A stretch of DNA of 64,000 nucleotides from Cellulophaga sp. BC115SP (GTDB lineage: Bacteria; Bacteroidota; Bacteroidia; Cytophagales; Spirosomataceae): assembly GCF_009905545.1 (NCBI RefSeq), contig NZ_JAAALB010000001.1, positions 310,001-374,000 on the forward strand, read 5' to 3'. The translations under genes and the position numbers were made by a program. Position 1 is the first letter of the stretch; every line of letters starts with the position of its first letter. This document shows, piece by piece, positions 19,201-37,700 of this stretch. Below the pieces are notes generated by a model, which saw only the letters and a list, made by a program, of their open reading frames with translations, was not told the DNA's origin and searched no databases.

Positions 19201-19257
19201 AGTTCCGTTTGGATTATCAATACCTCCCTGCTTTTTATAGATTGGAATATTAATGTT

Positions 19258-19599: not shown

Positions 19600-19663
19600 T
19601 ATTTTTAATTGACAATTTGAATTCAACTCCTATTATTAGTTTTGCACTAAATGAGAACACAAT

Positions 19664-19838
19664 AGCTGATTTTTTCTAGCTTCCTATGTACCAATGCTTC
19701 TCTAGATTCTATTCAGAAACAATCTCACACTTGAGTTAACTTTCAACATAGGTTTACCTCATAGACAGATAGCAGAATTATAGAAAGGGTTAGAGTCCTT
19801 AGATTGAGTCAGTACTGGCTAGGAAGTTGGCACTAGCA
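19664..19838. repeat. array repeat copy C
   Basis: The left arm is eroded (AGCTGATTTTTTCTAGCTTCC) while the middle segment with CTCATAGACAGATAGCAGAA and the right arm AGTACTGGCTAGGAAG are well conserved. It ends 13 bp before the stop codon of the lipoprotein gene at 19852. Confidence 0.82.
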
Positions 19839-19851
19839 GGGGGAAAAAGAT

Positions 19852-20235
19852 TTATTCTACCTTTATGTCTTCATCTCGAATGTACTTTTGCCAAAAAGAT
19901 AAATATTCACTTTTATTCAAATAACAGTAGGCTTTACCATTTCTGACATCAATAACTGTATACTTTCTCTTCTCTATTGGGATGTCTTTCAACTTCAAAC
20001 GACATGAAATTGAGTCAGTTGATACAGCGCAAATAAAATCGTCGTTAAATTTTAGATCCTTTACCGACTCTATCAAATTACAGCTTCCACCAAGTCCACC
20101 TCCTAATGATAGACGATTCGTGCAAGAACCTTCTACATAATATGCATTGTTTCCAGGCAGTTCAATCATACCATCTGACATATTGCAGCTATTTAAGATA
20201 AAAAAGCAGGCAGTAAATAATAGTTTTTCTTTCAT
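19852..20235 (-). CDS. orphan lipoprotein
   Basis: A 127-residue protein with a lipoprotein signal (MKEKLLFTACFFILNSC, lipid Cys at 17). The mature part contains GLGGSCN, FICAVSTDSISCRLK and a C-terminal YLSFWQKYIRDEDIKVE; the cysteines could form disulfides in the periplasm. No family is recognised. It lies between repeats C and D on the minus strand. The lipoprotein assignment is fairly safe, the function is unknown. Confidence 0.65.
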   Translation of the reverse strand: MKEKLLFTACFFILNSCNMSDGMIELPGNNAYYVEGSCTNRLSLGGGLGGSCNLIESVKDLKFNDDFICAVSTDSISCRLKLKDIPIEKRKYTVIDVRNGKAYCYLNKSEYLSFWQKYIRDEDIKVE

Positions 20236-20240
20236 AATAT

Positions 20241-20316
20241 ATTCACCTCGTGGATTGATAGCAGGGTTGAAGTTCTTAGATTGAGTTAGTACTGGCTAGG
20301 GAGCCAGCACTAGCGG
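20241..20316. repeat. array repeat copy D (truncated)
   Basis: Only the right 75 bp of the unit remain, from TTCACCTCGTGGATTGATAG to GAGCCAGCACTAGCG. It starts 6 bp upstream of the start codon at 20235 and is followed by a small hairpin CAAGTC-ATA-GACTTG (20322-20336) that recurs in copy J. The stop codon of the next gene is 35 bp away. Confidence 0.75.
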
Positions 20317-20350
20317 GTGTCCAAGTCATAGACTTGAACCATTATCATAT

Positions 20351-20716
20351 TTATTTAATCCGTTTGAAAAAACTTGACATAAAAATAGCATTTGCATGAA
20401 CATAGTCTAATTGCATAGTATCATTATAAAATACGCATTTATATGTGGTTCCACCTGAATTCAGAAACCCATTATTTTCCCAAAAGTATTTTTCTACAAC
20501 CATATTGCCCGTAGTATATTGCTGGTGTAAAAAAACACTATCCTCAAGATATTCATCATACCATTTTACGCCAGATGGTGCTTCTATTCTTCCATTACCG
20601 AGACCGATGAATTCCCATTTCCCTAAAATCGCTTTTTGTGGAGAAATATCTTCGTCTTTACAGCCTGTAGAAAGCGTAAATAACAATAGTAAAATAAGTG
20701 CAGATCGTGTTTTCAT
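20351..20716 (-). CDS. lipocalin-like lipoprotein (paralogue 1)
   Basis: A 121-residue lipoprotein (MKTRSALILLLLFTLSTGC, lipid Cys at 19). The mature start KDEDISPQKAILGKWEFIGLGNG followed by strands with YFWENNGF and CVFYNDTMQLDYV resembles the small lipocalin-like proteins of Bacteroidota, in which GKW begins the first strand. It is paralogous to the gene at 23604-23999 (KEEEISPKEIILGKWEEIYLGNG). Both copies belong to the repeat-separated array. Ligand and role are unknown. Confidence 0.7.
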   Translation of the reverse strand: MKTRSALILLLLFTLSTGCKDEDISPQKAILGKWEFIGLGNGRIEAPSGVKWYDEYLEDSVFLHQQYTTGNMVVEKYFWENNGFLNSGGTTYKCVFYNDTMQLDYVHANAIFMSSFFKRIK

Positions 20717-20865
20717 TTTTGCAGAAATAAAGTATTGAATGTGTAAAATATAACCCTGTATTAAAATCTAATTTTAGATAAATTTCAAGTTTAATAATGA
20801 GATTAATCTAAAGATACTTCACGGATAATAATGGTTGTAATTAGCCTCCACTTTTATAGAATCAA

Positions 20866-21026
20866 CCAACACTGGTGCTAGATTCTATCCAGAGGCTATC
20901 ATCTCAAAACTTCACAAATGAGTTGACTTTCATCATAGGTTTACCTCGTAGACAGATAGCAGAATTATAGAAAGGATTGGAATCCTTAGATTGAGTTGGT
21001 GCTGGCTGGGAAGCCAGCACGAGCGG
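20866..21026. repeat. array repeat copy E
   Basis: The unit has a shortened left arm (ACTGGTGCTAGATTC), the conserved CTCGTAGACAGATAGCAGAA segment and an intact right arm (GGTGCTGGCTGGGAAGCCAG). It ends 71 bp before the AraC stop codon. The remaining 150 bp of this gap (20717-20865) hold nothing recognised apart from the promoter region of the lipoprotein gene at 20716. Confidence 0.82.
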
Positions 21027-21096
21027 GGAACTTTCCTTCTAGAAGTATAGATGTATATTTGAAGAAGGCTATTTTATGATTTTATGCTAACGTTTC

Positions 21097-22008
21097 TTAA
21101 TTAAATGATCTTCGAAAATCCAATGGCGAAACGCTTGTCTTCTTTTTGAAAAGTTTGCTAAAAGACTGAGGGTGCTCAAACCCCAGTTCATAGGCAATTT
21201 CACTGACTGAAAGTTGAGTAACAGATAACTTCTCTTTCGCCTTTTCGATCAGTTTTTGATGTATGTGCTCCTGAGCATTTTTACCAGTGAGTTGCTTCAA
21301 CATACTACTCAGGTAATCAGGTGAAACATTCATAGCATCAGCAACGTTTTTCACGAAAATAAGACCGTCTTTTTTGGGAGCTTCAGATGAGAAATAGGAG
21401 TTCAGATAGTTTTCAACTTTCGTCAGCATTTGGTGATTGCTGATTTTTCTGGTAATAAACTGTCGGTGATAAAACCTCTCACAATATTTGAGTAGAAGTT
21501 CTATCTGAGCAATAATAAGACCTTGTGAAAAGCCGTCAATATTAGCATGATATTCCTGCCTGATGTTTTCGAAAATATTGAGGATAGTAGTTTCTTCTTT
21601 ACTGGAAAGGAATAGAGCTTCATGAATCGAATAATCAAAAAAGGAATAATTTTTAATATTCTGTGCTAAATGCGATCCCCATATAAAGTCAGGATGTACT
21701 TGCAACAAATAACCGGACCCATTGTTTAATGAGTCCGGGTTTCTTTCGATCCGTAGAACCTGCCCTGGTGCAATAAAAGACATCAGTCCTTCATCAAAAT
21801 CGTAAATCTGTTGCCCGTAATAAAGTTTGGCTCCAATATCGCGCTTTAAAGCTATCGAATAAAAATCCATGACAATATTCACAGCTTGAGAATATTCGGC
21901 AAACTGCAACATCGAATAATCAACGAGGCTGATTAGCGGATGTTCGGGCTTGGGGAGTCCTCTGAAACGGTGGTATTCAGTAATTGATTTAATTCTTACG
22001 ATTTCCAT
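21097..22008 (-). CDS. AraC-family transcriptional regulator
   Basis: A 303-residue protein with an N-terminal ligand-sensing part (FDEGLMSFIAPGQVLRIER) and a C-terminal double HTH from about residue 200: VADAMNVSPDYLSSMLKQLTGKNAQEHIHQKL and SVSEIAYELGFEHPQSFSKLFKKKT. This class commonly regulates short-chain dehydrogenase genes nearby. It follows the SDR and SnoaL-like genes on the same strand (84 bp behind the latter), so the trio may be one unit. The unit as a whole is inserted between array repeats E and F. Confidence 0.9.
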   Translation of the reverse strand: MEIVRIKSITEYHRFRGLPKPEHPLISLVDYSMLQFAEYSQAVNIVMDFYSIALKRDIGAKLYYGQQIYDFDEGLMSFIAPGQVLRIERNPDSLNNGSGYLLQVHPDFIWGSHLAQNIKNYSFFDYSIHEALFLSSKEETTILNIFENIRQEYHANIDGFSQGLIIAQIELLLKYCERFYHRQFITRKISNHQMLTKVENYLNSYFSSEAPKKDGLIFVKNVADAMNVSPDYLSSMLKQLTGKNAQEHIHQKLIEKAKEKLSVTQLSVSEIAYELGFEHPQSFSKLFKKKTSVSPLDFRRSFN

Positions 22009-22092
22009 ATAGGCAAATGTAAAGTTTTCTAAGCTATTGCGGAATGAACAATTTGAAAAAGACAGATAGAGAGCAGACCATCTGACGATTTT

Positions 22093-22527
22093 CTACGACT
22101 TACTTTTCATTAAAAGCCCAAACCAATCTTCCAGATGCCAAGTGTGGGTAAGCTTACCTTCTTTTAGGTAATGAAATTCGTGCAATGCTACAGAAACCTT
22201 TTGGTGTGTTGGCGCAATCCCCATGATTTCATGAGCATGGGTAAACTCCATTGAAGCCCTTACAGCAGCCCGCTCATGGGTTCCGACAATGTCATGAACG
22301 ACAACCTCTATATCTGGACAGAGTTCAAAAAGATGTCTCATAATTTTCTGAAGCCCCTTTGGTCCGTCTTCCTGACCGGGAGCAAGCGGAATATCTTTCC
22401 AGTCAGGCATGCAAATTTGATCTAATATTTCAGGATTCTTCATCTTGAATGCACCGTAAAATTTCATGATCGTATCGATCTCTGTTTCCGTTAATGCTTT
22501 AATGAGCATAGTTTCTCTATTTTCCAT
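22093..22527 (-). CDS. SnoaL-like ester cyclase / NTF2-fold protein
   Basis: A 144-residue protein of the SnoaL/NTF2-like fold: helix KALTETEIDTIMKFYGAFK, then GPKGLQKIMRHLFELCPDIEVVVHDIVG, and the conserved strand AAVRASMEFTHAHEIMGIAPTHQKVSV and WHLEDWFGLL. Members include polyketide cyclases and uncharacterised proteins acting on small organic substrates. The SDR gene ends 13 bp upstream, so the two are probably cotranscribed. An internal ATG seven residues in (MLIKALTETE) is an alternative start. Confidence 0.8.
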   Translation of the reverse strand: MENRETMLIKALTETEIDTIMKFYGAFKMKNPEILDQICMPDWKDIPLAPGQEDGPKGLQKIMRHLFELCPDIEVVVHDIVGTHERAAVRASMEFTHAHEIMGIAPTHQKVSVALHEFHYLKEGKLTHTWHLEDWFGLLMKSKS

Positions 22528-22540
22528 TTTGATTTAGCTA

Positions 22541-23305
22541 TTAAAGATTAGATCCTCCTGAAATCTCGATTCGCTGGGCATTGATCCAACCTGCAGCATC
22601 ACTACATAAAAAAGCAACAACTCCTCCGATATCTTCCGGAAGTCCGACTCTTCCCAAAGCAGTCTGAGAGGCTAAATATTGATTCATTTCTGCATTATCC
22701 CTCACGGCACCGCCCATAATATCAGTTTCAATCGCTCCTGGAGCTACTACGTTTGCCCTGATGTTTCTTTTGCCTAATTCCTGAGCTTGGTATTTAGTCA
22801 ATGTTTCCATAGCACCTTTTAATGCGGCATAAGTTGCAAAACCTGGGGTAGTAAAGCGAGTAAGACCTGAAGAAACATTTACGATACCACCGAAAGCATT
22901 AATTTGGGGCAACAACTTTTGGGTGAGAAAAAATGGTCCTCGAAAGTGTACATTTTCCATTTCTATGAACTGTTCTTCTGTGATATGTTCATAAGCTGCA
23001 TAATGAATAAATCCTGCATTATTAACCAGAAAATCAAAACGATCCGTATTCCATTGAGACTGTAATTCGGATGTTAAATCTGTTACAAATACATCAAAAC
23101 TTGAAGAATCTGAAACATCAAGTTTCAATGCAATTCCTTTTTGTCCGAGTTCCTCAATTTGTTTTACGACTTTTTCGGCAGCTTCTTTTTGGCTATTATA
23201 GGTAAAAACTATATCCAATCCATTTTTGGCTAGACTAAGGACCATATCTTTTCCGAGACCACGGCTTCCTCCTGTTACGACTGCAATTTTGTTTTTAGTT
23301 GACAT
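22541..23305 (-). CDS. short-chain dehydrogenase/reductase
   Basis: Classical SDR of 254 residues from the ATG at 23305 (MSTKNKIAVVTGG); ten upstream residues would come from an earlier ATG at 23335. The nucleotide-binding motif TGGSRGLGK (11-19), NNAGFIHYA, catalytic Ser in VNVSSGLTRF and Tyr/Lys in TYAALKGAMETL, and the family motif NVVAPGAIETD are all present. It reduces or oxidises a carbonyl or hydroxyl group with NAD(P). It is first of a probable SDR/SnoaL/AraC unit. The substrate is unknown. Confidence 0.92.
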   Translation of the reverse strand: MSTKNKIAVVTGGSRGLGKDMVLSLAKNGLDIVFTYNSQKEAAEKVVKQIEELGQKGIALKLDVSDSSSFDVFVTDLTSELQSQWNTDRFDFLVNNAGFIHYAAYEHITEEQFIEMENVHFRGPFFLTQKLLPQINAFGGIVNVSSGLTRFTTPGFATYAALKGAMETLTKYQAQELGKRNIRANVVAPGAIETDIMGGAVRDNAEMNQYLASQTALGRVGLPEDIGGVVAFLCSDAAGWINAQRIEISGGSNL

Positions 23306-23463
23306 ACTTTTGCTTTTTATATTAATGTGCAGCAAAGGTATGTCGAGAATATAAAGAGAATTTAGCCATATCCTGACTCTTCGTAGCTAAAACCAGAATT
23401 ATATATAATATTAGTTTTTAGATATTCAATATCTTTTTTAATTGTTATTCGTATCAATACATT

Positions 23464-23612
23464 CATACTGGTGCTGGAGACTATCTTCCTACAACCTCAC
23501 AATTGAGTTGACTTTCACCGTAGGTTTACCTCATAGACAGATAGCAGAATTATAGAAAGGATTGGAACCCTTAGATTGAGTTGGTGCTGGCTGGAAGTCA
23601 GCACTAGAGAGG
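23464..23612. repeat. array repeat copy F (overlaps a stop codon)
   Basis: The unit has a reduced left arm (ACTGGTGCTGGAG), the conserved CTCATAGACAGATAGCAGAA segment and a right arm GGTGCTGGCTGGAAGTCAGC ending in CACTAGAGAGGGG. The CTAG of this end supplies the stop codon (23604-23606) of the lipoprotein gene at 23604, so repeat and gene overlap by about 9 bp. Confidence 0.82.
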
Positions 23613-23999
23613 GGATTTTATTTTTTTTGAAATAGAGACATTAAATATGGTTGAAAAATTATTAGTTTCAAGACGAAGGTTGTCATCATAAAATTGATAC
23701 TTGTAATCGAATATCAACCAGAAGCCATCTTGACGTTGAGTTCCTATATGTAGAAGAGAATCTATCCAATATTTCTTCACAAATGACTTTTTTGTTGCAT
23801 AATCATATTCAATAAGTACGCTATCACTAAGAAATTGACGATACCCGCTAGGAACTAATAGTGGTCTTTCTTCTCCATTACCTAGGTATATCTCTTCCCA
23901 CTTACCTAAAATAATCTCTTTCGGAGAAATTTCTTCTTCTTTACAAGCAGAGGGTAATACGTATATGGATAGTAAAAAAATAATAGATGTCTTTTTCAT
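23604..23999 (-). CDS. lipocalin-like lipoprotein (paralogue 2)
   Basis: A 131-residue lipoprotein (MKKTSIIFLLSIYVLPSAC, lipid Cys at 19) with mature start KEEEISPKEIILGKWEEIYLGNG, matching the protein at 20351 almost residue by residue over the first 25 positions and more weakly after that (DSVLIEYDYATKKSFVKKYW against DSVFLHQQYTTGNMVVEKYF). The last residues and the stop codon are encoded by repeat F. It belongs to the array. The fold is probably lipocalin-like, role unknown. Confidence 0.7.
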   Translation of the reverse strand: MKKTSIIFLLSIYVLPSACKEEEISPKEIILGKWEEIYLGNGEERPLLVPSGYRQFLSDSVLIEYDYATKKSFVKKYWIDSLLHIGTQRQDGFWLIFDYKYQFYDDNLRLETNNFSTIFNVSISKKIKSPL

Positions 24000-24055
24000 C
24001 TTCGCTCAACTAACGTGATAATTGTATACAATTCAACAATAAAAAATATTCATGT

Positions 24056-24205
24056 TTTTGGTAAAGAATAATGCTAAAAGAGCCGTGAATTTCAGACTGA
24101 AAATATAGCCATTTATCCAAACTAGAAACATAACCCTTAATCTGTTTCCGATGAAGATATAATATTTATTGGCTACTTCCCTATCGGTTTTTATCAGAAA
24201 AATTT
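24056..24205 (-). pseudogene. 5' fragment of a PH-domain-like membrane protein gene
   Basis: Read on the minus strand, this stretch gives NKYYIFIGNRLRVM, then YIFSLKFTALLALFF. The intact gene at 26339-26794 reads NKYSFFVVNRLGVM and YIFSLKVIALLALFF at the same positions, with clear nucleotide similarity over about 140 bp. The fragment has no ATG and breaks off after about 48 codons into the upstream region of the lipoprotein at 23999. As with the intact gene, an array repeat (copy G) lies a few base pairs beyond its 5' end. Confidence 0.75.
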
Positions 24206-24210
24206 AACTC

Positions 24211-24361
24211 CCGCTGGTGCTGGCTTCCTAGCCAGTACCTATTTTTCTCTGGATTCTATCCAGAGGCAATCTTTCCAAAACTTCACAATTGAGCTGACTT
24301 TCTTTATAGATTGGAATCTAAGATTGAGCTAGTACTGGCTTGGAAGCCAGTACTAGCGGGG
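24211..24361. repeat. array repeat copy G
   Basis: Short form. Termini CCGCTGGTGCTGGCTTCC (24211) and GGAAGCCAGTACTAGCGG (24342-24359) are inverted copies over about 18 bp. It includes the CTCTGGATTCTATCCAGAG hairpin but lacks the CATAGACAGATAGCAG segment. The stop codon of the next gene begins 1-2 bp after its end. Confidence 0.88.
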
Positions 24362-24362
24362 T

Positions 24363-24953
24363 TTAATTAGTACTTATAGCATTTAAAAATGCTTGATTTT
24401 CAACTAACTTCATCACTAATGCATCAATTGCGGGTGGCATAAACTCCTTAAAGCTTCCACCTTTAGTTTTTACTTTACCCACTAAAATATCTGTCCAAAT
24501 AACCTTATTATTATTGTCTAATAGTTGAAACTTTACGGTAATTTCTGGAATCATTTGAACACTTGCAAAACCACTTATTGCCTCGTAGTCTAATTTTATC
24601 AACCAAGATTTGAGTATCAAATCCTCATGTTGAGAATTGTACTGTATTCCTTTTTCTTTTAGCCCATTTTCAATAGCATTCAATAGAATTTCAGTGACAG
24701 GATTTTCAGCAAGGTAAGTTCCAGACATAGTCTGACTGTACATATTCTTCTTGTAAAATATTATTCTTTCATCATCATACCCTCTTTCGTCTTTCATTGG
24801 CTCAAGTTTAACCTGTTTACTTGATGGCAGTTTATCAGAAATAGTCAATGATGGGCTGTAATTGATGCTTTGAACAGAATTAGTTAAAGCACAGCTAGTT
24901 AAAGTAGAAACAATAAAAGAATAGAGTGCGAATTTTAAAATTAGTCGATTCAT
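24363..24953 (-). CDS. YajG-like lipoprotein
   Basis: A 196-residue lipoprotein (MNRLILKFALYSFIVSTLTSC, lipid Cys at 21). The mature protein has EPMKDERGYDDERIIFYKKN, a helix ENPVTEILLNAIENGLKEKG and strands EDLILKSWLIKLDYEAI and IPEITVKFQLLDNNNKVIWTD, a pattern like the YajG/DUF-type lipoproteins that share an alpha/beta fold. The resemblance is moderate. It lies between repeat G and a long gene-free region. Function unknown. Confidence 0.65.
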   Translation of the reverse strand: MNRLILKFALYSFIVSTLTSCALTNSVQSINYSPSLTISDKLPSSKQVKLEPMKDERGYDDERIIFYKKNMYSQTMSGTYLAENPVTEILLNAIENGLKEKGIQYNSQHEDLILKSWLIKLDYEAISGFASVQMIPEITVKFQLLDNNNKVIWTDILVGKVKTKGGSFKEFMPPAIDALVMKLVENQAFLNAISTN

Positions 24954-27544: not shown

Positions 27545-27706
27545 CATTAGTCCTAGATTCTATCCATAGGCAACAATTCCAGCATTTCACAATTGAGCTC
27601 ATTTTCTTTACAATTTCATAGTTTAAAGATATTAAAAAAATAGGTCCAAGCCGTAGACTTGAACCTATTGGAATTTTTACTCAGGATTGGAGGCTAGCAC
27701 TAGCAT
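27545..27706. repeat. array repeat copy J (last copy)
   Basis: Left part TCCTAGATTCTATCCATAGG and right end AGGATTGGAGGCTAGCACTA flank the variant middle of copy I (CAATTTCATAGTTTAAAGAT) and a CAAGCC-GTA-GACTTG hairpin (27647-27661). It ends 30 bp before the stop codon of the carbonic anhydrase gene, so the last gene of the neighbouring operon also abuts an array repeat. Confidence 0.75.
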
Positions 27707-27736
27707 AAACTTACCCCTGAGAAGATAAAAGATTTG

Positions 27737-28480
27737 CTAGTCAAACAAGTACAAATTGTTTTGTCTTTCCTTGGTAATCAGATTTATGACATCAAATCTC
27801 CTAATCTGCGTAAATGATCCCATGTCACTATCACTGTTAATCAGTATAGATCCGAGTAAAATCACATATTTACAATTATAGTTAGTCAGTTCGACAAGTT
27901 CATTGAGTCGTTGATCGATTGCCTCATAAATTACTTCAGTTGCTTCAAATAAAGGGGATGAAGCAGTAAGTACTCGATTTTTTTGCTTGAGCAAAATTTG
28001 CTCAATGGTATTCATTTGATAATCCAATTCGGTCACATTACCTGCGATGATTTGGTCGTTGAGCAATTTACCAAGTGCTCCTTTTGCAGCACCACAACAG
28101 CCACTATTTTTATGTTGTCCTAGTCGATGAATCTCCCCAATTGTACCTGTTTTTGTTACACCAATATGCGGCCCATAATAAATGAAAACTGCACCATCAT
28201 CAGGAACATGACTGGCAAATGCAGCCATCCCCGTAAGTCCAGTAAATGGATATCCATCCAATCCTCCCATCTTGAAAGGTCCTAAAAACTCTTGAGTCCT
28301 AGCTGGATATTGAATGCTGTTGACATCGTCGCTACAAATACTATCAGCAAGCATTACTTGTTTAGGCTCCAAATCTAGTTCGGATTCTACAAAATCAATG
28401 ACTTTGTTTACACAATCAATCGTTGTCATTGCTTTGGGATACCATTGATGAACAATCCCTAGTTTTTCTCTTTTTTTCAT
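27737..28480 (-). CDS. LCIB/C-type carbonic anhydrase
   Basis: From the ATG at 28480 (MKKREKLGIVHQWYP) the protein has 247 residues; a longer frame to 28546 would overlap the bestrophin gene. It shows the motifs of the limiting-CO2-inducible protein B/C family: SICSDDVNSIQYP (Cys49, Asp51), GGLDGYPFTGLTGMAAFASHVPDDGA, FIYYGPHIGVT (His105) and SGCCGAAKGA (Cys128/129). These give the two Cys and one His expected for the zinc site and an acidic catalytic residue. The family interconverts CO2 and bicarbonate. No signal peptide, so cytoplasmic. It lies 10 bp downstream of a bestrophin gene, with a K+ channel upstream of that. Confidence 0.82.
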   Translation of the reverse strand: MKKREKLGIVHQWYPKAMTTIDCVNKVIDFVESELDLEPKQVMLADSICSDDVNSIQYPARTQEFLGPFKMGGLDGYPFTGLTGMAAFASHVPDDGAVFIYYGPHIGVTKTGTIGEIHRLGQHKNSGCCGAAKGALGKLLNDQIIAGNVTELDYQMNTIEQILLKQKNRVLTASSPLFEATEVIYEAIDQRLNELVELTNYNCKYVILLGSILINSDSDMGSFTQIRRFDVINLITKERQNNLYLFD

Positions 28481-28490
28481 GTCAAAGTAT

Positions 28491-29498
28491 TTAAAGTATG
28501 ATATTATTCTTAGGCTGTAGGGCTGGTGGCAAATCTGTTTCACCAAGCATTTCTCTCATATCTATTTCAATAGTTCGGCTCATTTGGGAAATTGGTACAT
28601 CGTTCGCACTTCCTTCAAAAGGGTTTTCAGTACTTTCGCCCACTTGCTCCAAAGATGTATATATCCAAGAAATCAATACGCTGAACGGAATCACCAACCA
28701 CACCATATATCCTTTCATCACACCCTCTATTCCTTCGTTGAGCTTGTCAAATTCCTTGAGCAAACCGAAAGGAAGAAGAATACAAAACAGCCTAATGAAA
28801 AATGTATTAATCGTTGCGAACTGCCTCGGATAAGGAAAATTTTTGATTCTTTCACTTTTGCCCTGATGATCATAAAATTCCTTCAACATCTTCTGCATTT
28901 CGACCATCAAATACGAATCAATCTCCTGATTAGCATAAAGCTCTTTAATGGTCTTACTTTGTAAACTTAGCAGCTGAGCTGCCTTATTTTTGGTAGACAG
29001 TATATACACTAACTCTTCCGCTGAAAGGTATTTTTTTAATTCCTCTTCTAGTGTCGTTTCTCTTTCTGGAATGGTATAAAATGCTTTGTACTCTTCATTG
29101 TAAGATTTGCTGGCGGTTTCCCAAGCTCTGGCATCTCTCATAGCATATCTAAGCGCAGTCAACCAAGCAAAATGACGATAAAATAGCTCTTTGGTTTTGT
29201 CAGCATTACTCAAAAAATCCCTACTCATAGTGCCCCATGCACGACTACTATTTAGAATTGCTCCCCAAATCTGACGTGCTTCCCATGTTCTATTATAAGT
29301 TTGTGTATTTTTAAAACCTACAATAAAAGCTGTAGCTGTACCCAATAATGAGACTACAGTCCAAGGTATTGCAAGCCATTTTAGGTCGGCGACCTCATAC
29401 AACACCACTGGAACAATACCAATGAATAACGTCTTATAGATATTCCTGCGAGTCCAGACTATAAATTCTGATAGTTTGTAAGATTTTCCTGAATGCAT
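28491..29498 (-). CDS. bestrophin-family anion channel
   Basis: A 335-residue membrane protein of the bestrophin/UPF0187 family. The signature TQTYNRTWEARQIWGAILNSSRAWGTM (about 66-92) corresponds to the conserved first cytoplasmic part, and PFGLLKEFDKL with the later IPFSVLISWIYTSLEQVGESTENPFEG to the second channel-forming half. Bestrophins form pentameric anion channels; algal members pass bicarbonate. The start codon shares one base with the stop of the upstream channel gene (TAATG at 29496-29500), so translation is coupled. The carbonic anhydrase gene follows after 10 bp. Confidence 0.9.
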   Translation of the reverse strand: MHSGKSYKLSEFIVWTRRNIYKTLFIGIVPVVLYEVADLKWLAIPWTVVSLLGTATAFIVGFKNTQTYNRTWEARQIWGAILNSSRAWGTMSRDFLSNADKTKELFYRHFAWLTALRYAMRDARAWETASKSYNEEYKAFYTIPERETTLEEELKKYLSAEELVYILSTKNKAAQLLSLQSKTIKELYANQEIDSYLMVEMQKMLKEFYDHQGKSERIKNFPYPRQFATINTFFIRLFCILLPFGLLKEFDKLNEGIEGVMKGYMVWLVIPFSVLISWIYTSLEQVGESTENPFEGSANDVPISQMSRTIEIDMREMLGETDLPPALQPKNNIIL

Positions 29499-30166
29499 TA
29501 TTTTGATTGATTTGAAGTGAATTTGCTTATTAAAATACCTACCAGAACCACCGAATAAAACTGACCTGCTACACCAATGAGTGAAGTAGTCAATTTGGTA
29601 AAGTAGACATTGGGAGTTATATCTCCATATCCTATTGTCGTAAGTGTGACCGAACAGAAATATACGAGATCCATAAAAGTGAGTGCTGGGTCAGAATAAT
29701 CTACCCCTTTAAATGACTGAGGATACCGATAAACCCACATTTGAAAAAGAAATACGAATATTTCAATTAGTAAAAACAGCCCGCAAGCTGCCGCCGAAAT
29801 GATATCGGTATTAATATAGCTAGGTTTGATTAGGAATTTAAAAACTTCCAGAAAAATGAAGGAATAAAATATGACATAGCAAATATTCAATAGTAGCATA
29901 AATCCGATATTACCTCTGAAGAAAGGAAGCAGGATGGGAAGCAACACCACAAAAAATGTTAAGGCGTTTTTGATGGAATTTTTGGTACGCCCTTTCTCTA
30001 TAAACACACCCACACTAGCTAAACCAAGAATAACCATGTTGATAGGCCAAATTACCTCAGTGTAAAAAGCTAAGTCAGTAACAAAAATCCCTATGTACAG
30101 GTGTTGAACTAAGGCAACCAGCAGTATTTCGTACTTTCTTTCATTGATAAAGCTTTTCAGATTCAT
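29498..30166 (-). CDS. six-helix K+ channel-like protein
   Basis: From the ATG at 30166 (MNLKSFINERKYEILLV) 222 residues with about six hydrophobic segments and a pore loop VTLTTIGYGDITP carrying the TIGYGD selectivity filter. The fourth segment lacks the regular arginines of voltage sensors, so it is probably a non-voltage-gated or weakly gated channel. An ATG at 30208 would add 14 residues. Its stop overlaps the bestrophin start. A cation path beside an anion channel would allow electroneutral movement of bicarbonate with K+; this is inference from context. Confidence 0.85.
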   Translation of the reverse strand: MNLKSFINERKYEILLVALVQHLYIGIFVTDLAFYTEVIWPINMVILGLASVGVFIEKGRTKNSIKNALTFFVVLLPILLPFFRGNIGFMLLLNICYVIFYSFIFLEVFKFLIKPSYINTDIISAAACGLFLLIEIFVFLFQMWVYRYPQSFKGVDYSDPALTFMDLVYFCSVTLTTIGYGDITPNVYFTKLTTSLIGVAGQFYSVVLVGILISKFTSNQSK

Positions 30167-30940
30167 ATAGTTAAAAGAAATAGTTAAGGTTTTTGAAAAA
30201 TTATACAAGCTGAGCTATATGACGAAATGTAACACGTTTGGTTACATACTAGCAGATTGAAGAAAGTGAAGAGGGTTCTCCATGTTCAAATGTTAGTCTT
30301 GCATTTGTTGAGTGGCTTTTGATTTCGGCTATGTTTATGATAAAATAACCTTATGATTTGAGCTATTGAACTAACTCCATTAGCGATTTCTGCATTAGAT
30401 AACTATTAGAAAATTCCTATCATCTGCGCAACTAATAAATCCTAACAAACATCCATGGGCAGTCCCTTTCTGATGTAATCTAAAGTTTGAGATGACTTCA
30501 GTTTTGTGTTTTGTAGCACTCCAAATATAAAATAGATCTAATGAATTCATCTTGGTATAGAAGCGCTTTTAAAAAAATAGAATTTCCTAAAAATCATTCA
30601 CTAAAAAGTAGTATCTTAGATTGTTAATCCACTATTTATCAGTTTGAGACATTTCAATTTTTAAAATAAATACTGATAAAATATACGAATACATGTGAGT
30701 TTAAATGGTTTGTTAGAGACTCTTTCAATACAACATTCACAACTTGTACTTTATAGTGGTGGCTACTTAAAATCCGAAATTCAATTAAAGAAAAGTAAAA
30801 GCCACAAGGCATAAACTTATCTGACACTATTCATATTTGATTCAGGCATCGAAGTTTTCGATGCCTTTTTTTGTACTTAGGACAATCTCGATTACATTTG
30901 AGTCTATAAAGTAAATAGCTACATAAAAAATTATATAAAA
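30167..30940. other. intergenic region with a terminator and no gene
   Basis: About 730 bp between the divergent channel and membrane-protein operons, AT-rich, without a coding frame of gene-like character. It ends with a clear rho-independent terminator at 30844-30873, whose transcript on the plus strand I cannot identify; a small RNA or a lost gene is possible. Confidence 0.4.
30844..30873 (+). terminator. strong intrinsic terminator without obvious upstream gene
   Basis: GGCATCGAA-GTT-TTCGATGCC is followed by TTTTTTTG, a perfect nine-base stem with a U tract on the plus strand. No plus-strand gene precedes it in the 600 bp upstream, which suggests an unannotated short transcript or a remnant. 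Confidence 0.8.
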
Positions 30941-31432
30941 ATGCGCCAGTATCTCTCACTAATATTACTATTAGTCCCTGCAATTTTGTTTGCAACACTT
31001 CTTTGGGTCTTTAAAACCAATATTCACTTAGGCATAAGACAAGTCTTCCCATTTTTACCTTGGCAGTTCTGGGCAATAGCCATCTTTGGAAGTGTGGCAA
31101 CTTGTGGCGGAATTCTTGACTGGCGATACCATCGAAATCCTCTTAATCTAAAAATACCAAAAAAAGAACGAGATGCTGAAGCTGCCGCGCTGGGACTTGG
31201 TGGAATCCCAATGTTTGTACTGATGTGGGTTAGTATGATGAGCAACTCTCCCAAAGTCTACCTTATACCAATTTTAATTGTACTCATCTACACAGTTGTA
31301 GCGATCTGTTATGATGAATTTGTGTTTCATATCAAACGTTGTGGTAAGCTGGAGAACACCTTTCATAGAATGCTAGTTGGCGGGAATGGGATTGCATGGT
31401 TAGCTTGGTTTCATTTTATTTATTGCCAATGA
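30941..31432 (+). CDS. integral membrane protein of unknown function
   Basis: A 163-residue protein with about four hydrophobic segments (MRQYLSLILLLVPAILFATLLW, FWAIAIFGSVATCGGILDW, LGLGGIPMFVLMWVSMM, VYLIPILIVLIYTVVAICYD) and a C-terminal FHRMLVGGNGIAWLAWFHFIY. A charged loop NLKIPKKERDAEAAAL lies between helices 2 and 3. No family name is recognised. Its stop overlaps the next gene's start by ATGA, so the three genes to 32632 are one translationally coupled operon. Confidence 0.75.
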   Translation: MRQYLSLILLLVPAILFATLLWVFKTNIHLGIRQVFPFLPWQFWAIAIFGSVATCGGILDWRYHRNPLNLKIPKKERDAEAAALGLGGIPMFVLMWVSMMSNSPKVYLIPILIVLIYTVVAICYDEFVFHIKRCGKLENTFHRMLVGGNGIAWLAWFHFIYCQ

Positions 31433-31944
31433 AATATCAATATCTAATAAGGAAAAGCTCCGAAATCTTAGCTCAAAGCTCCATTCCCAATACAAAGTTA
31501 TCCCTGCAATTATTTACGGATGGCGCCTTTTGGATGGCACAGTATCTTGAACTACTAAATCCCCATCAAGAAGTAAATCTCCCAAATAGGAGCTTTGAGT
31601 TATATGGATACTTAAAATATAGTCTTTGTATCTTTTTTTCTGTGATCCTTTTGGTTAAAACCTCCTTTTGGTACTTGCCAATTAGTCTTGCTATATTTTA
31701 CCTAGTCGAAGTTCACTTCCTTTTTTTATTTCCTTTGTTAATTGAAAACACTAAAAATCCAATTAAAAAAAGTTGTGAGATACTATACCAATTAGGAGTT
31801 TTCTCAACAGTGCTATTGGTAATGAGAATTGGCATATTTATGCTTATAGGTTTACTTAATTATCGAAAACCCTTACAAAACTGGCATATAGGATGCCTCG
31901 CTGTTATCGTTTGGTATCATGAAGAAGTTAGAAATAGGCTATAA
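31429..31944 (+). CDS. second integral membrane protein of the operon
   Basis: A 171-residue protein from the ATG at 31429 (MKYQYLIRKSSEILAQ), which overlaps the previous stop as ATGA. It has a polar N-terminal part, hydrophobic segments around LKYSLCIFFSVILLV, YLPISLAIFYLVEVHFLFLFPLL and VFSTVLLVMRIGIFMLIGLL, and ends in WYHEEVRNRL. No family recognised. Its C-terminal coding end overlaps the phosphoesterase start by 26 nt. Coupling implies the two membrane proteins work with the phosphoesterase. Confidence 0.7.
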   Translation: MKYQYLIRKSSEILAQSSIPNTKLSLQLFTDGAFWMAQYLELLNPHQEVNLPNRSFELYGYLKYSLCIFFSVILLVKTSFWYLPISLAIFYLVEVHFLFLFPLLIENTKNPIKKSCEILYQLGVFSTVLLVMRIGIFMLIGLLNYRKPLQNWHIGCLAVIVWYHEEVRNRL

Positions 31945-32632
31945 TCATACTTTTGAGATTCGCACTGAAAATATTCAATCAGAGCTTCCAGAAGGATTTT
32001 CAATTCTATTTATATCAGACTTGCATTTATCTTGTTTTAGTCAAAAACTGATTCATAAAGTGATTTGTGAGATTGAGGTAATTAATCCTGATATCATTTT
32101 GCTTGGAGGAGATTATATAGATTTTGATGGTGGTTTGATTTATCTAAATTCTTTATTAGCGTACTTATCAACTAAAAGATATGTTTTTGCCATAGCTGGA
32201 AATCATGATTACTTCTTTGGTATATCGAAAGTGAAATCCTTATTTTTAGAAAATAACATTAAATGGATTGAAAATGGCTATCATATTTTTTCGATAAAGT
32301 CTATCAACCTATTGGTGTCGAATCTACATGAGAAAGTCATGTCGGCAGATTTCAATATCCAGATGGTTCATAATCCGAAAGATTTCGAAAGAACCCAACA
32401 GCACTTCCATTTACAGTTGGCAGGACATCTGCATGGTTGCCAAATTGTATGGTGGAAAAAAGACCATGGATTATATCCTGGAAAACTATTTTACCCTTGG
32501 AATCTTTTAAAAAAGGAAGGACTACACAACCTCAAGCTAATTAGCAAAGGATTGGGAGATACACTCCCTATTCGGTTTAACTGTCCTAAGGATATTATTT
32601 TGGTCAATGTATTAGCTAAAGAGACTAAATGA
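31919..32632 (+). CDS. metallophosphoesterase
   Basis: A 237-residue calcineurin-like phosphoesterase: ISDLHLS (metal site 1), LGGDYID, AGNHDYFFG and AGHLHGCQIVWW complete the dimetal motif set DxH-GD-GNHD-GHxH. Related YkuE/LpxH-like enzymes act on lipid-linked phosphates or nucleotides. It lacks its own N-terminal membrane segment, but the C-terminal part and the two coupled membrane proteins suggest action at the membrane. It overlaps the upstream gene by 26 nt. Confidence 0.88.
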   Translation: MKKLEIGYNHTFEIRTENIQSELPEGFSILFISDLHLSCFSQKLIHKVICEIEVINPDIILLGGDYIDFDGGLIYLNSLLAYLSTKRYVFAIAGNHDYFFGISKVKSLFLENNIKWIENGYHIFSIKSINLLVSNLHEKVMSADFNIQMVHNPKDFERTQQHFHLQLAGHLHGCQIVWWKKDHGLYPGKLFYPWNLLKKEGLHNLKLISKGLGDTLPIRFNCPKDIILVNVLAKETK

Positions 32633-32647
32633 TTTTTGATATTAATA

Positions 32648-32680
32648 AAAAAGGCGATATCCATTACTGAATATCGCCTA
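32648..32680. terminator. terminator of the phosphoesterase operon
   Basis: AGGCGATAT and ATATCGCCT arms (32651-32677) flanked by A-rich and TATCATTA sequence form a stable hairpin 20 bp after the phosphoesterase stop codon. It probably serves the plus-strand operon; the A tract on the left allows function in both directions. Confidence 0.7.
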
Positions 32681-32736
32681 TCATTAATAAATCAGGTTTT
32701 TATTAAAAAGTTTTATACAGAGTTAGATTCAACTTA

Positions 32737-32779
32737 TTGTGAATGTAAAACATTGACAATAAAAGCTTTACATTCACAA
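32737..32779 (-). terminator. hairpin downstream of susD-like gene
   Basis: Arms TTGTGAATGTAAA and TTTACATTCACAA form a perfect 13-bp stem with a 17-base loop, about 30 bp after the SusD stop codon on the minus strand. No long U tract follows, so it may act as an mRNA-end stabiliser or a rho-assisted terminator. Confidence 0.55.
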
Positions 32780-32807
32780 TTCATCATTCACAACTCTGCA
32801 CTAATCA

Positions 32808-34757
32808 TTAATAACCAGGGTTTTGCATAGCAGTTTTTTGATCAGATGTCAAAGGTTTTCCTCCGCTGTACACGCCATCCAAAAATGTCTGTGGAATTGG
32901 TCTCAACAAATGGAAATCTTTAATATTGTTAGCTGCACCAGGGTTGTAAGCTTTCGCTCTAGCTACCAATGTTTTAGTTCTGCTCAAATCTTCCCAACGG
33001 TGGAATTCACCGCAAAGCTCTCTTGTTCTTTCGTTCAATACCAAGCACAACATTTTGTCATACGTAGAAGTATAGCCTAACTTGTTGATTACGGCTACAT
33101 CTTGCGCTGGCAAATTGGTAACACTTGTAATATCAAGCGCTGTTGCTGTAGTTGCGACAGGAATATTATTCGACTCATAGTATGAGTTTTCAGTCATAAA
33201 TGAGTTAATGTTTACATTCTGACCTGATTGAGATACAACATACGCAGCAGCACCATCTGTATAAGCAGCTCTGTCCTCACCAGCTTTATAAGCAGCTCTT
33301 TTTCTTACAGCATTGATGTAAGGAAGCGCAGCATCATAAGAACCTTGACCAAGGTTTGCCAAGCGAATTTTTGCTTCAGCAGCCATCAAATACGTCTCTG
33401 CCGATCTAGCCAATACCATGTCTCTGTAACCTCTTACTTCGTTGATTGCCAAACGTGCTCCATCAAAATGTTTACTCAATGATGGGAAACGAACGTCTTG
33501 CACTAAACTTTTTCCATCTGAAGCATGCGCTACATATACCGTAGGGACGGTTTTGTTGGTTTTTGAATAAACAATCTCATCCACATATTTCGTTTTTGTA
33601 AAACGTGTATCTGATGGACTGTTGATAATAAACATCAAACCAAGGTCACCATTTACGTATTTACCACTACCGTTATTAAGTCTACTTTTTGTTCTAAAAC
33701 TTTTCCAGAATCTTGAGTCATTCACTTGGTCGAAGGCATCATACGTAAAGTATGTAGGTGCCAAACGGCTAAACGGACGCATACCTGTCAAGTCACGTTG
33801 CATATACGGAAGGTCATCATAACGAGCCGTGAAGTACAAGTGCTGATTGTTGAAGTTTGTTGCTAACAAATTGTCCCCAAATTGTGCCGAAAGAATCAAT
33901 TCTGATAGCGTTTCGTTTGTTCCATTAGGTTTGTTATAAGCCCAAAGGTCTCCAAAATTATTTGCCAGAGGGTGTCTTGCAATTACTTCGTCTGAAAGGG
34001 TCACTACCTTAGCTAGGTCTGCGGCCTTGGTAGAAGAGTTCCAGGCATCATTGATTTCACTAGCTCTCGATAAGTACGCTTTAGCTAAGTAATGCGCTAC
34101 AGCATCTTTTGTAATTTTGGCTGGAGCACCTGTATTATCCAACAAATCATACGCTTTTGATAAATCATCGATAATTTGTGCATAAACTTTGTCTGGCGTT
34201 TCGCGAGTAAACTCTAATTCTACCGTTGTACTAACACTCAATTTCAATGGCACAGCACCATATTGACGCACCAATCTCAAGTAGTTATAAGCACGCAAGA
34301 AATAGCCTTCACCTAAAGCTGTTTTTTTGATGGCATTACTTGTCGACTTACTTTCAGTAGCTGATTTAACAATTTGATTGGCCAAACCAATGGCTACATA
34401 GTAAGTATCCCAAGCTCTTTCGGCGGCGATGGTATTACTTGTTACTACAGTCACAATCGACTTAAAACCACCATCATAGTTGTTCCAAGGGCTATTTGAA
34501 CCATCACCTCCTACATGAAACTCATCTGTTCCGTAGTTGGTAGTTGCAAACTGAACCTCTCCACTCAATGGCACATTAAAGGTCTGGTTGTAAGCACCCG
34601 TCACTGCGGCTTGAATACCTTCGTCGGTTGAGTAATAGGCATTACTTCTTTGAGTAGTTAACTCTTCTTTTAGAAAATCTGACTGACAAGACGTTGTTGC
34701 TAAAAGAGCGAATGCACAAATACCTGTTTTTATATATCTAAACTGTACTTTATTCAT
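32808..34757 (-). CDS. SusD/RagB-family glycan-binding lipoprotein
   Basis: From the ATG at 34757 (MNKVQFRYIKTGICAFALLATTSC, lipid Cys at 24) about 649 residues. The mature start QSDFLKEELTTQRSNAYYSTDEGIQAAVTGAYN is typical SusD, as are GEGYFLRAYNYLRLVRQYGAVPL, the RSAETYLMAAEAKIRL helix and the C-terminal LNERTRELCGEFHRWEDLSRTKTLVARA with LRPIP. SusD covers the SusC barrel on the cell surface and delivers substrate. It lies 18 bp after the susC-type gene. No glycosidase is linked, so the substrate is unknown. Confidence 0.94.
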   Translation of the reverse strand: MNKVQFRYIKTGICAFALLATTSCQSDFLKEELTTQRSNAYYSTDEGIQAAVTGAYNQTFNVPLSGEVQFATTNYGTDEFHVGGDGSNSPWNNYDGGFKSIVTVVTSNTIAAERAWDTYYVAIGLANQIVKSATESKSTSNAIKKTALGEGYFLRAYNYLRLVRQYGAVPLKLSVSTTVELEFTRETPDKVYAQIIDDLSKAYDLLDNTGAPAKITKDAVAHYLAKAYLSRASEINDAWNSSTKAADLAKVVTLSDEVIARHPLANNFGDLWAYNKPNGTNETLSELILSAQFGDNLLATNFNNQHLYFTARYDDLPYMQRDLTGMRPFSRLAPTYFTYDAFDQVNDSRFWKSFRTKSRLNNGSGKYVNGDLGLMFIINSPSDTRFTKTKYVDEIVYSKTNKTVPTVYVAHASDGKSLVQDVRFPSLSKHFDGARLAINEVRGYRDMVLARSAETYLMAAEAKIRLANLGQGSYDAALPYINAVRKRAAYKAGEDRAAYTDGAAAYVVSQSGQNVNINSFMTENSYYESNNIPVATTATALDITSVTNLPAQDVAVINKLGYTSTYDKMLCLVLNERTRELCGEFHRWEDLSRTKTLVARAKAYNPGAANNIKDFHLLRPIPQTFLDGVYSGGKPLTSDQKTAMQNPGY

Positions 34758-34775
34758 CTTAAAAATCATTAAAAG

Positions 34776-37700
34776 TTAAAAATCAACATTGATACCCATT
34801 GTAAATCCTCTGTTCCAAGCTGAACTTTGTAAGTCCATATCAATCCAGTTGATATTGTTGTAAACCATTCCTAAGTTTTGTGCTTGGAAATAAACTCTTG
34901 CATGACTCAAGCCAAGGCTCTGAGAGAATTTGTCTGGCAAGTTGTATCCTAATGAGACGTTTCTAATTTTAATAAATGATCCATCTTTGTAGCCTAGTGC
35001 TGTGTAATAAGGGTCACCTGCTGCGGCTGTATAGTATGGGTGTTGATAATCTGCATTGGTATTGTTTGGTGTATAGTAGCTCACAACACGTTGGTTTGAA
35101 CGACCTGTCAATGCCTCACCTCCTGTGTTATACAAGTATTTCAAACGACCATACAACATTACTGATAATGAAAAACCTTTGTAGTCAAATGTGTTAGTCA
35201 TACCTACGATAAATCTAGGAATAGTACTTCCTAATACTCTACGGTCATTTGATGCATCGATTTTATAGTCTCCATTCTGATCTACAGGTCTTACAGAACC
35301 AACAGTGAATGCTTGTCCGTTAGCATTGAATTTAGCCATTTCAGCTGCATCAGCTTCTTTCCACAAACCAGCAGATTGGTAGTCATAAATTACGCCTTGG
35401 CTTTGACCAATAAACCATTTGTTGTTGATATCGTCTACTTTACCGTTTGCTAGAGATACAATCTCGTTAGCTTGCCATGAGCCGTTGAAAGTAGTGCTCC
35501 ATTCAAAGCCTCCTCTGTTCAAGTTTACCGTTGTTACTGTTAAATCAATACCTTGACTTGATGTTTCACCAATGTTTGCATAAGTGTTTACAAAACCTGT
35601 AACAGATGGAATCGTTTTCAACATCAACAAATCTGTTGTACGAGACGTATAGTAATCTAATGTACCACTAACTTTTCTTTTGAAGAATGAGAAATCAATA
35701 CCGTAGTTGATTTGGGTTGTTTTTTCCCAGGTTAAGTCTTGATTCGCTAAGGTTGAGTTATTCACTTGTCCTGTAGCCAAAGTACCTCCATAAGGGTAGT
35801 ATATTTGAGAAAGACCACCTTGAGTAGCATAAGGATCAATTGCCGAGTTACCAGTAACCCCCACCCCTGCTCTTACTTTCAAGTCATCAATCCAACGTTG
35901 ATCTGCCAAAAATGGCTCATTAGTCAATCTCCAACCTAAAGCAGTACTCGGGAAGAATGCCCATTTGTTTCCTTCTGCCAACTGTGACGCACCATCATAA
36001 CGACCTGATACTGTAATCAAGAATTTGTTATTGTAATCATAGTTGATACGACCTAAATATGAACGAAGTTGTCTCTGTGATAACGACGACCCCCAAGCAG
36101 ACAATGGAATATTTAAAGCATTCCATTTTTGACTTGTCATAGGCACGTTATCTGCTGCCATATTATTTTTGTCGTAAGTCCACTCTGTTTGAGTTTGGAG
36201 TGCCAATACACTCAATTGATGCTTTCCTATGGTTTTGTTATAGGTTAGCATATTATCCAAAGTATAAGACAAGGCTTGATCTTTGGTCAATGAAGCATAA
36301 CTTGATCCTGTTCTGATTACTGAGTTCGCATCTAAGAATACCCCATTTTTATTGATTGAAACGTCTGGACCAAAGTTCATTCTGAATTTCAAACCATCCA
36401 ATGCTTTAGAGAATCCAGCGAAGTTGATTTCAGAATACAAACTACCAAAAATACGTAAGTTGCTACGCTGATCCTGAGAATAATTCTCTTCGTTTACAAC
36501 CGTTTTGAAAGCATCGTCACCGCCAGGATACAAGATTCTTGCGCCATTGGCATCGTATGGTACGGTATAAGAAAACAAGTTTCTAGCACTTTCATACAAG
36601 CCCGAAGCACCTACGTTAGTGTTTTTACCTGCACCAGATTGTCCGTACTCATTCACAGAATAGGCTGCATTTAAGACACCGCCCATCGAGAACCACGCAT
36701 TTGGTTTTACGTCAACACTCAATTTTGCAGAGTAACGCTTGTAGCTTTGTCCTTTTACTGTACCTTGGTTATCGATAAAACCAAAAGAGGCGTAAGACTT
36801 CATTTTATCAGTACCACCACTTACACTGATCGTATGTTGACCTGTCAATGACGGACGAGTTACCATACCAATCCAGTCTGTATTTTGTACCTTAGAACCG
36901 TCCCAAGTGCCACCTTCCCAGCCTTTTAGGATATTATTCCAAGATGATAAGTCTCCTGAGCCTTTGAAAATCAAGAAGTCATTGGCCTGAGTAGGTTTGT
37001 CACCACGAGGATACAAATTCTGATTCAAATAATAATATGACCATCTTCTGTAATCGATATATTGCGCAGCGTCCATCAATGGTGAGCTGTTTTGCAATGT
37101 TTCAGTGGTAAAGTTAGAGTTCAAACTCAAGGTATATTTACCATTTTTACCTCTTTTCGTAGTGATAATCACAACACCGTTTGCACCACGCGAACCATAA
37201 ATAGCCGTAGCAGAAGCATCTTTCAAAATGTCTACTGTTTCAATATCGTTAGGGTTGATGTTATCGATACCACCCGATGTCAATGGAATGTTATCTACTA
37301 CGTACAAAGGTGAGTTTGAAGCTGTCAACGAACGAACCCCACGAATCGTGATATTTCCTACTTGACCGGGTCTTTCATTAGAAGTAATGTCAACCCCAGC
37401 CGCTCTACCTTGCATACCTTGTAGCGCATTGGCAACAGGTCTTTGTGTAAGGTCTTTAGCACTTACGCTTACTACTGCACCTGTAACGTCTGATTTTTTA
37501 CGCTCGCCATAACCAATTACGACAACCTCTTCTAAGGCTTTCGTATCTGTTTGTAATACTACATTTATTACCGTCTGATTTCCAACTGCTACTTCTTTTG
37601 TTTCGTAGCCCGTCGAAGAAATTACTAACACCGCATTGCCATCTGGTACATTGAGTTTGAACGAACCATCTACACCAGTTGTGGTTCCTTGATTTGTACC

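Follow-up and report, generated by a model that had tools for sequence, protein, structure and literature searches.

A bestrophin gene recurrently paired with carbonic anhydrase genes in Bacteroidota: a candidate bicarbonate-moving operon

What might two channels and a carbonic anhydrase (CA) do together in a single bacterial operon? The question is raised by a 64,000-nucleotide stretch of the genome of Cellulophaga sp. BC115SP (contig NZ_JAAALB010000001.1, positions 310,001 to 374,000; the whole stretch is called the window below), in which three minus-strand genes encode a K+ channel-like protein, a bestrophin, and a CA of the LCIB/C type (Table 1). They are transcribed in this order, with a 1-nt overlap followed by a 10-bp gap. 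This packing had been described in a first reading made from the letters alone (the sequence-only reading), and it held when the coordinates were re-derived; the CSDD, YGPHIG, and CCGAA motifs of the LCIB protein and the TIGYGD filter of the channel were all present as well. By linkage counts across genomes, the grouping of the three genes exceeds chance. The operon is a real and recurrent gene unit with a plausible mechanism: on balance, it probably encodes a bicarbonate-moving unit, in which a cytoplasmic CA would feed a bicarbonate channel, most likely with exit of HCO3- and an accompanying counter-ion flow.

The family assignments of the three proteins are clear. The 247-residue protein matched the LCIB/C profile PF18599 strongly (256.9 bits against a curated cut-off of 25), and its closest solved chains by sequence were 6kfs (E = 4.4e-29), 9vzj (5.3e-27), PtLCIB4 (5b5y, 3.3e-23), and CrLCIB (5k5w, 1.8e-7). 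Its AlphaFold2 model (pLDDT 89.1, pTM 0.88) matched the LCIB fold in Foldseek, with E = 7.5e-16 and TM 0.81 against PtLCIB4 (5b5z, the H88A entry), TM 0.84 against 6kfs, and E = 4.6e-10 against CrLCIB; the zinc and catalytic residues aligned. Neither a missing LCIB profile match, nor misaligned zinc ligands, nor a lack of bestrophin linkage in all related genomes was found, because the profile matches, the ligands align, and the linkage occurs in many genomes. The bestrophin scored 145.9 bits against PF25539 (cut-off 27) and matched KpBest (4wd7) with E = 3.1e-22; bestrophins are pentameric in solved relatives. The K+ channel-like protein scored 44 bits against PF07885 (cut-off 22.5) and matched K+ channels with a best E of 1.3e-7. 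Its AlphaFold2 model (pLDDT 84.2) shows the 6TM-1P layout of five helices followed by a pore helix and a final helix, with no regulatory domain and, as judged by eye, no Arg-rich or charged S4; built as a monomer on an alignment of 18 rows, the model gave no Foldseek match at E <= 0.001. The filter reads TTIGYGD in the window channel and G[YF]GD in all 18 homologues (GFG in 15, GYG in three including the window).

An alignment of six close LCIBs, run against 84,980 species genomes, gave 136 relatives; the best 80 of these were retained together with as much as 5 kb of flanking sequence, some on short contigs, and two genomes contributed two loci each. A same-strand bestrophin gene stood beside the LCIB gene in 47 of the 80 loci, with a gap of at most 242 bp in 46 of the 47 and a spacing of mostly 4 nt or small overlaps. 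Both gene orders were observed, the bestrophin being upstream in 41 linked loci and the LCIB first in six. The LCIB was accompanied by a bestrophin and a K+ channel in 14 loci, by a bestrophin alone in 27, by a bestrophin and a Na+/H+ exchanger (same strand, within 5 kb) in five, and by a bestrophin and a TMEM175 channel in one; a K+ channel without a bestrophin was found once, an exchanger without a bestrophin four times, and none of these partners in 28 loci. The neighborhoods of LCIB homologues thus bear out the association that the sequence-only reading had proposed from a single genome. Among the genera with linked loci are Chryseobacterium, Epilithonimonas, Flavobacterium, Pedobacter, Sphingobacterium, Dyadobacter, Runella, Arsenicibacter, Emticicia, Rudanella, and Algoriphagus; metagenome-assembled genomes (MAGs) of Cyclobacteriaceae, Saprospiraceae, and Chitinophagales also carry them. 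Nearly all are Bacteroidota, other phyla having been reached only by this one scan for close relatives, and the linked loci labelled Pseudomonadota (L095) and Armatimonadota (L108) are MAG contigs that may be misbinned.

Two genome samples gave a similar picture (G, C, L, and f numbers denote genomes, contigs, loci, and bacterial families of this analysis). Among 295 genomes of the class sample, 14 carried an LCIB and eight the close type (E <= 4e-60), which was linked in six (G000, the source genome; G571, G589, G486, G437, and G633, the last by a partial bestrophin match only) and unlinked in G227 and G464; the surveys overlap, since five of these eight genomes are also among the 80 loci. 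Among 395 genomes of the phylum sample, 35 carried an LCIB, and the close type was linked in three of five (G000, G313, and G328; unlinked in G227 and G243). The LCIB open reading frame (ORF) of G437, 582 aa from stop to stop, is taken as two tightly packed genes whose frame stays open, and not as a fusion. The linked bestrophins themselves grouped together: in a 66-row tree, all 49 LCIB-linked bestrophins fell in one 51-row branch (support 100/99), and 15 other bestrophins, most of them from the same or related genomes, fell outside it; the window bestrophin belongs to this clade. The class sample also included seven divergent LCIBs, among them the second LCIB of the source genome; their fetched flanks (1.5 kb only in five cases) contained no bestrophin of this clade. 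In the phylum sample, no bestrophin lay within 1.5 kb of the LCIB gene at any of the 22 loci fetched from family f37; the linkage with bestrophin is therefore confined to one LCIB subfamily. The divergent LCIB of G469 has a bestrophin of a different type at a distance of about 6 kb. In five loci (L089, L081, L095, L111, and L073), the ORF directly upstream of the bestrophin encodes a small, conserved protein that looks membrane-bound (about 170-195 aa), and in four of these loci it overlaps the bestrophin ORF by a short stretch, stop to stop; the L089 copy had no Pfam match.

The bestrophin clade was first seen with 49 linked and two unlinked members, which suggested that it was specific to LCIB. 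This was rejected after a wider class search with the clade alignment gave at least 77 matches of at least 360 bits in 60 of the 295 genomes, compared with LCIB in 14; the clade is common and mostly not beside LCIB. For 45 of these clade matches, all full-length and drawn mostly from the head of the list, about 10 kb of surrounding sequence was fetched, and the window brought this set to 46. LCIB adjoined four of the 45. Among the 41 not beside LCIB, seven had a tight same-strand neighbor encoding a classical beta-CA (Table 1), the two genes overlapping by up to 67 nt (stop to stop) or lying up to 9 bp apart, and 34 had no CA neighbor. The beta-CA identity was confirmed with PF00484 for three of the seven and for the others by a profile seeded with one of these. 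A CA neighbor was present for 12 of the 46 clade bestrophins (a count that excludes the partial G633 case) and for one of 40 other bestrophins, which were taken from the top of a different hit list in the phylum sample and fetched in the same way (Fisher p = 0.002). Phylogenetic analysis of 91 clade rows, by a quick method with no bootstrap, indicated that the LCIB label needs 11 changes, at least seven of them forced by starred branches, and the beta-CA label two. Because the tree forces these changes, the CA-bestrophin pairing is read as having arisen or been lost repeatedly. LCIB and bestrophin distances, uncorrected for species kinship, were correlated at r = 0.29 over 49 pairs, with none of 2000 permutations as high, and the correlations with the K+ channel were r = 0.52 and 0.65 over 17 triples. 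The repeated pairing, the two gene orders, and the unrelated CA family in the same slot argue most strongly that HCO3-/CO2 is the common substrate. At L154:585-2178, two CAs stand side by side, a divergent LCIB gene following a beta-CA gene immediately and in the same orientation.

The pore of the bestrophin was compared with that of KpBest. Counted on the pairwise alignment, the KpBest neck I62-I66-F70 corresponds to T54-F58-F62 in the window, with Thr at the first position and Phe at the second and third. Position 66 was Phe in all 94 clade bestrophins (82 TFF and 12 IFF; 91 distinct) and Ile, Leu, or Met in all 16 non-clade bestrophins, none of which had Phe. According to the available text of PMC8496536, the neck reads IIF in KpBest, a Na+ channel, and IFF in eukaryotic Cl- channels, and the I66F substitution shifts the preference of KpBest to Cl-; the title of a reference describes animal bestrophins as highly permeable to HCO3-. 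Because of Phe at position 66 across the clade, anion conduction is predicted for all of its members. The second pore restriction (the aperture; I180 in KpBest) is variable in the clade and is mostly Tyr or Phe. In the parts of the literature that were available, the physiological role of bacterial bestrophins is described as open.

In the mechanism that we favor, a cytoplasmic LCIB-family zinc enzyme would interconvert CO2 and HCO3- next to the bestrophin, HCO3- would cross the inner membrane passively through the anion-favoring (I/T)-F-F neck, and a counter-ion or a proton would be carried by the K+ channel or, in relatives, by TMEM175 or a Na+/H+ exchanger. Since the cytoplasm is the negative side, the net flow would most likely be outward, with CO2 being hydrated, HCO3- leaving with K+ or coupled to Na+/H+ exchange, and H+ staying behind. 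Exit of HCO3- and K+ with retention of the proton would dispose of respiratory CO2 and either lower the cytoplasmic pH or adjust the membrane potential, and HCO3- exit beside a Na+/H+ exchanger would fit alkaline pH control.

The opposite direction is the first alternative to be weighed. HCO3- would be taken up for carboxylases at low CO2, the LCIB would balance it with CO2, and the operon would act as a CO2-concentrating mechanism of a heterotroph, a role that the sequence-only reading had implied. Algal LCIB and bestrophins serve such a mechanism in the available text of PMC6708349 and PMC13159521, and one of the clade bestrophins with no CA neighbor lies 83 bp behind an ORF (L217:4067-4648) that matches only the C-terminal half of Sbt_1, a Na+/bicarbonate transporter family, and is possibly a broken gene. 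However, a Nernst estimate suggests that a passive channel at about -120 mV would hold inner HCO3- about 100-fold below outer, which makes concentration of CO2 by a passive anion channel in an inside-negative cell thermodynamically doubtful and efflux likelier. In Chlamydomonas models, moreover, LCIB is in the stroma and BST channels move HCO3- into the lumen (PMC6708349 and PMC13159521, available text), which we read as flow from the negative to the positive side; because the bacterial layout corresponds to this stroma-lumen topology, exit of HCO3- is predicted by analogy. The only match to the RuBisCO_large family in the source genome, a protein of 414 aa (L275:1105-2349, G000:C196), is probably a RuBisCO-like protein. 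The ORF next to it presumably encodes a glycoside hydrolase. Uptake is thus considered unlikely.

The cation partner varies, yet it tends to move K+, Na+, or H+. In G227, a TMEM175 K+ channel ORF (PF06736, 2.3e-25) overlaps the clade bestrophin ORF (L232:8514-10168), and the LCIB of this genome is on another contig, alone in the fetched 12 kb; in L108, TMEM175 lies behind the LCIB. Na+/H+ exchangers adjoin in L091, L098, L103, L104, L115, and L117, and PF00999 was confirmed for those of L091, L104, and L187 (an apparent twin of L117). Two Spirosoma LCIBs are behind an H+-pyrophosphatase gene (L062, with PF03030 confirmed, and L068, by clustering). The L062 enzyme shares one 920-aa ORF with a C-terminal OmpA domain (L062:2113-4872), and the Spirosoma lacussanchae LCIB (L068:4986-5765) is cut into two ORFs by a stop and is likely a pseudogene. 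A TMEM175-like ORF known from a profile match only and cut by the locus end (L137:346-1799, G103) overlaps a non-clade bestrophin, so K+ channel-bestrophin pairing may extend beyond the LCIB-bestrophin operon. The charge-balancing K+ channel of the sequence-only reading remains plausible as a function, a K+ channel being present in 14 of the 47 linked loci and TMEM175 or a Na+/H+ exchanger elsewhere; the K+ channel itself is optional.

These partners also bear on a second alternative, an osmotic or chloride valve in which the bestrophin conducts Cl- and the K+ channel K+, the two giving electroneutral release of KCl, and the CA only buffers the local pH. A K+ channel gene accompanies the anion channel gene in 14 of the 80 loci and in the window, and the Phe neck is of the Cl- channel type. 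Such a valve leaves unexplained why two unrelated CA families are recurrently and tightly linked to the bestrophin, with the K+ channel being optional, and it appears improbable.

Whether the LCIB protein acts as an enzyme is a separate question, as a third alternative denies it catalysis and makes it a CO2 barrier or a scaffold attached to the channel, a role put forward for Chlamydomonas LCIB/LCIC. In the available text of PMC5876011, three purified LCIB homologues are reported to be without CA activity, a barrier role is proposed, and His162/161 and Arg194/193 are disordered in inactive LCIB-family structures. Judged by spacing, these residues are probably H91 and R119 of the window protein. 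H91 and R119, together with D51, were conserved in all 119 distinct LCIB homologues collected in this analysis (rows shorter than 180 residues excluded), and the presumed zinc ligands C49, H105, and C129, assigned by alignment, were each conserved in 118 of them. The site of the PtLCIB4 S47R mutation aligns with S50, the Ser of C-S-D, which the window protein retains, and PtLCIB4 H88 corresponds to H91, counted along the same ungapped stretch of the alignment. The active site looks intact, and catalytic activity is predicted from these residues. Since a classical beta-CA takes the same slot as well, a purely structural LCIB is regarded as quite improbable. The absence of the close LCIB from four congeners, the break in homology with the same-genus genome G003 at the operon edge, and the nearest LCIBs from other families might suggest that the three genes travel together by chance on a horizontally moving island. 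This is very improbable given that the pairing is repeated across bestrophin subclades, in two gene orders, and with beta-CA in place of LCIB.

Several observations weigh against the bicarbonate-moving unit that we favor. A beta-CA was also found in every one of the 45 LCIB-bearing genomes that were searched (46 of the 80 loci asked; L047 left out). No bestrophin was found in the available flanks, some of them short, of 33 of the 80 close-LCIB loci, and the correlation between LCIB and bestrophin distances is weak. The control and test bestrophins were taken from separate hit lists, neither of them at random, one non-clade control (L243) also has a beta-CA neighbor, and the LCIB rows of the 91-row tree come from an LCIB-centered search. 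Phe66 is clade-wide, including the 34 members with no CA neighbor, and is not specific to CA linkage; the nearest solved relative, KpBest, is a Na+ channel; and purified LCIB homologues have been reported inactive, as noted above. The first of these points also excludes the LCIB as the only CA of the cell, a beta-CA being present in the source genome too. Because all searched LCIB genomes also carry a beta-CA, the window LCIB is an additional CA, probably a dedicated one. The neighbors of the 33 bestrophin-less LCIB loci (32 of 34 ORFs scanned; one short ORF and one LCIB piece excluded) had at most three members per family (ThuA/3-keto-disaccharide hydrolase), with one H+-pyrophosphatase and one Na+/H+ exchanger, among 25 of 49 families listed. 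Around the 34 clade bestrophins without a CA (35 of 37 ORFs scanned; a near-duplicate and a long, overlapping frame excluded), no family had more than two members, with one Sbt_1 and one TMEM175, among 25 of 39 families listed.

The 7.08-Mb source genome contains two LCIBs, one beta-CA, and at least three bestrophins (in the window, on C196, and on C56), and no alpha-CA was found in it. Its second LCIB (L038:8104-8868, G000:C13) is divergent (38% identical), with no bestrophin in the fetched 17 kb. The close LCIB was absent from all four same-genus genomes; a divergent LCIB, apparently the counterpart of the second copy, was present in two of them. In comparison with G003, positions 30372-37462 are 90.9% identical and positions 30218-30260 95% identical, and the three operon proteins had no tblastn match in the 16-kb G003 stretch. 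The nearest LCIB, 87% identical, is from Chryseobacterium (Weeksellaceae). Because the close LCIB is absent in congeners, G003 homology resumes upstream, and the nearest LCIB is from Chryseobacterium, these comparisons point to horizontal acquisition or repeated loss of the operon. Plasmid and phage collections contained no LCIB homologue at E 1e-5. The suggestion of an older bacterial module, made from the window alone, found no support: the linkage is patchy, nearly all in Bacteroidota, and absent from four congeners, and the pairings have apparently been gained and lost repeatedly, so the age of the module relative to the algae is not inferable.

Table 1. Features of the operon and its edges in the window, and loci with a beta-CA gene beside a clade bestrophin.
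Feature	Position or locus	Strand	Description
K+ channel gene	29498-30166	minus	222 aa from ATG; PF07885 Ion_trans_2, E = 2.1e-11
Bestrophin gene	28491-29498	minus	335 aa; PF25539 Bestrophin_2, E = 2.3e-42
LCIB/C-type (theta/beta-like) CA gene	27737-28480	minus	247 aa from ATG; PF18599 LCIB_C_CA, E = 1.7e-76
Terminator-like hairpin, 14 pairs and T-run	27669-27639	minus, 3' of operon	consensus match only
Edge of homology with same-genus genome G003	30218-30372		just upstream of operon; sequence comparison
beta-CA-bestrophin pairs	L191, L193, L201, L203, L204, L205, L219		bacterial families f103 (three times), f106, f94, f100, f77

Both outer ORFs, those of the K+ channel and the LCIB, have an upstream TTG as an alternative start. 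The hairpin behind the operon is weak evidence alone, as four terminator-like sites were found in the 64-kb stretch against 1.8 (sd 1.3) expected. Dispersed repeats of 66-144 nt in up to seven copies occur at positions 18497-24371, and the 3' end of the operon has a stretch resembling them by eye (about 27550-27710). No tRNA genes were found in the window.

A wider proposal is that of a modular HCO3--efflux unit of Bacteroidota, in which an anion-selective bestrophin clade would take a docking LCIB or beta-CA and swappable K+ or Na+/H+ partners, the algal LCIB-BST system being a parallel use on the same negative side. We put this forward tentatively, as possible rather than probable. The recurrent linkage to two unrelated CAs, together with a neck residue linked to selectivity, gives these bestrophins a concrete, testable role as bicarbonate channels; the operon would further offer a genetically simple system for the algal LCIB-bestrophin partnership and suggests parts for engineering CO2/HCO3- fluxes. 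Among the matches listed from the open-access literature, as far as their text was available, no bacterial operon of a bestrophin with LCIB or another CA was described.

Each component of the operon has known relatives. PtLCIB4 (5b5y) and other LCIB-type CAs share their Pfam family, fold (TM 0.81), and active-site residues with the window protein; PtLCIB4 differs in being eukaryotic, with 27% identity in the structural alignment, and we know of no channel linked to CAs of its type. KpBest shares its family and pore positions with the window bestrophin, whereas its I-I-F neck and Na+ conduction distinguish it from the T/I-F-F clade. The vectorial CO2-hydrating complex DAB2, as described in the text available, resembles the operon as a membrane unit coupling CO2 hydration to membrane energy. 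On the other hand, it consists of unrelated proteins, carries out an energized one-way CO2 hydration, and belongs to autotrophs. To our knowledge, no pairing of SbtA or BicA with LCIB is known. Like the proposed unit, these proteins move HCO3- across the bacterial inner membrane (PMC13159521, available text); unlike it, they are sodium-dependent transporters and not channels. In Chlamydomonas, LCIB/LCIC are reported to interact with BST proteins (PMC6708349, available text), and LCIB/LCIC with the thylakoid BST1-3 resemble the operon in having an LCIB-family protein on the negative side of an energized membrane, a bestrophin partner, and a proposed role in HCO3- movement. That system belongs to a photosynthetic CO2-concentrating mechanism in the chloroplast, whereas the unit described here is a bacterial operon, with signs of photosynthesis neither looked for nor encountered, and includes a K+ channel or a Na+/H+ exchanger.

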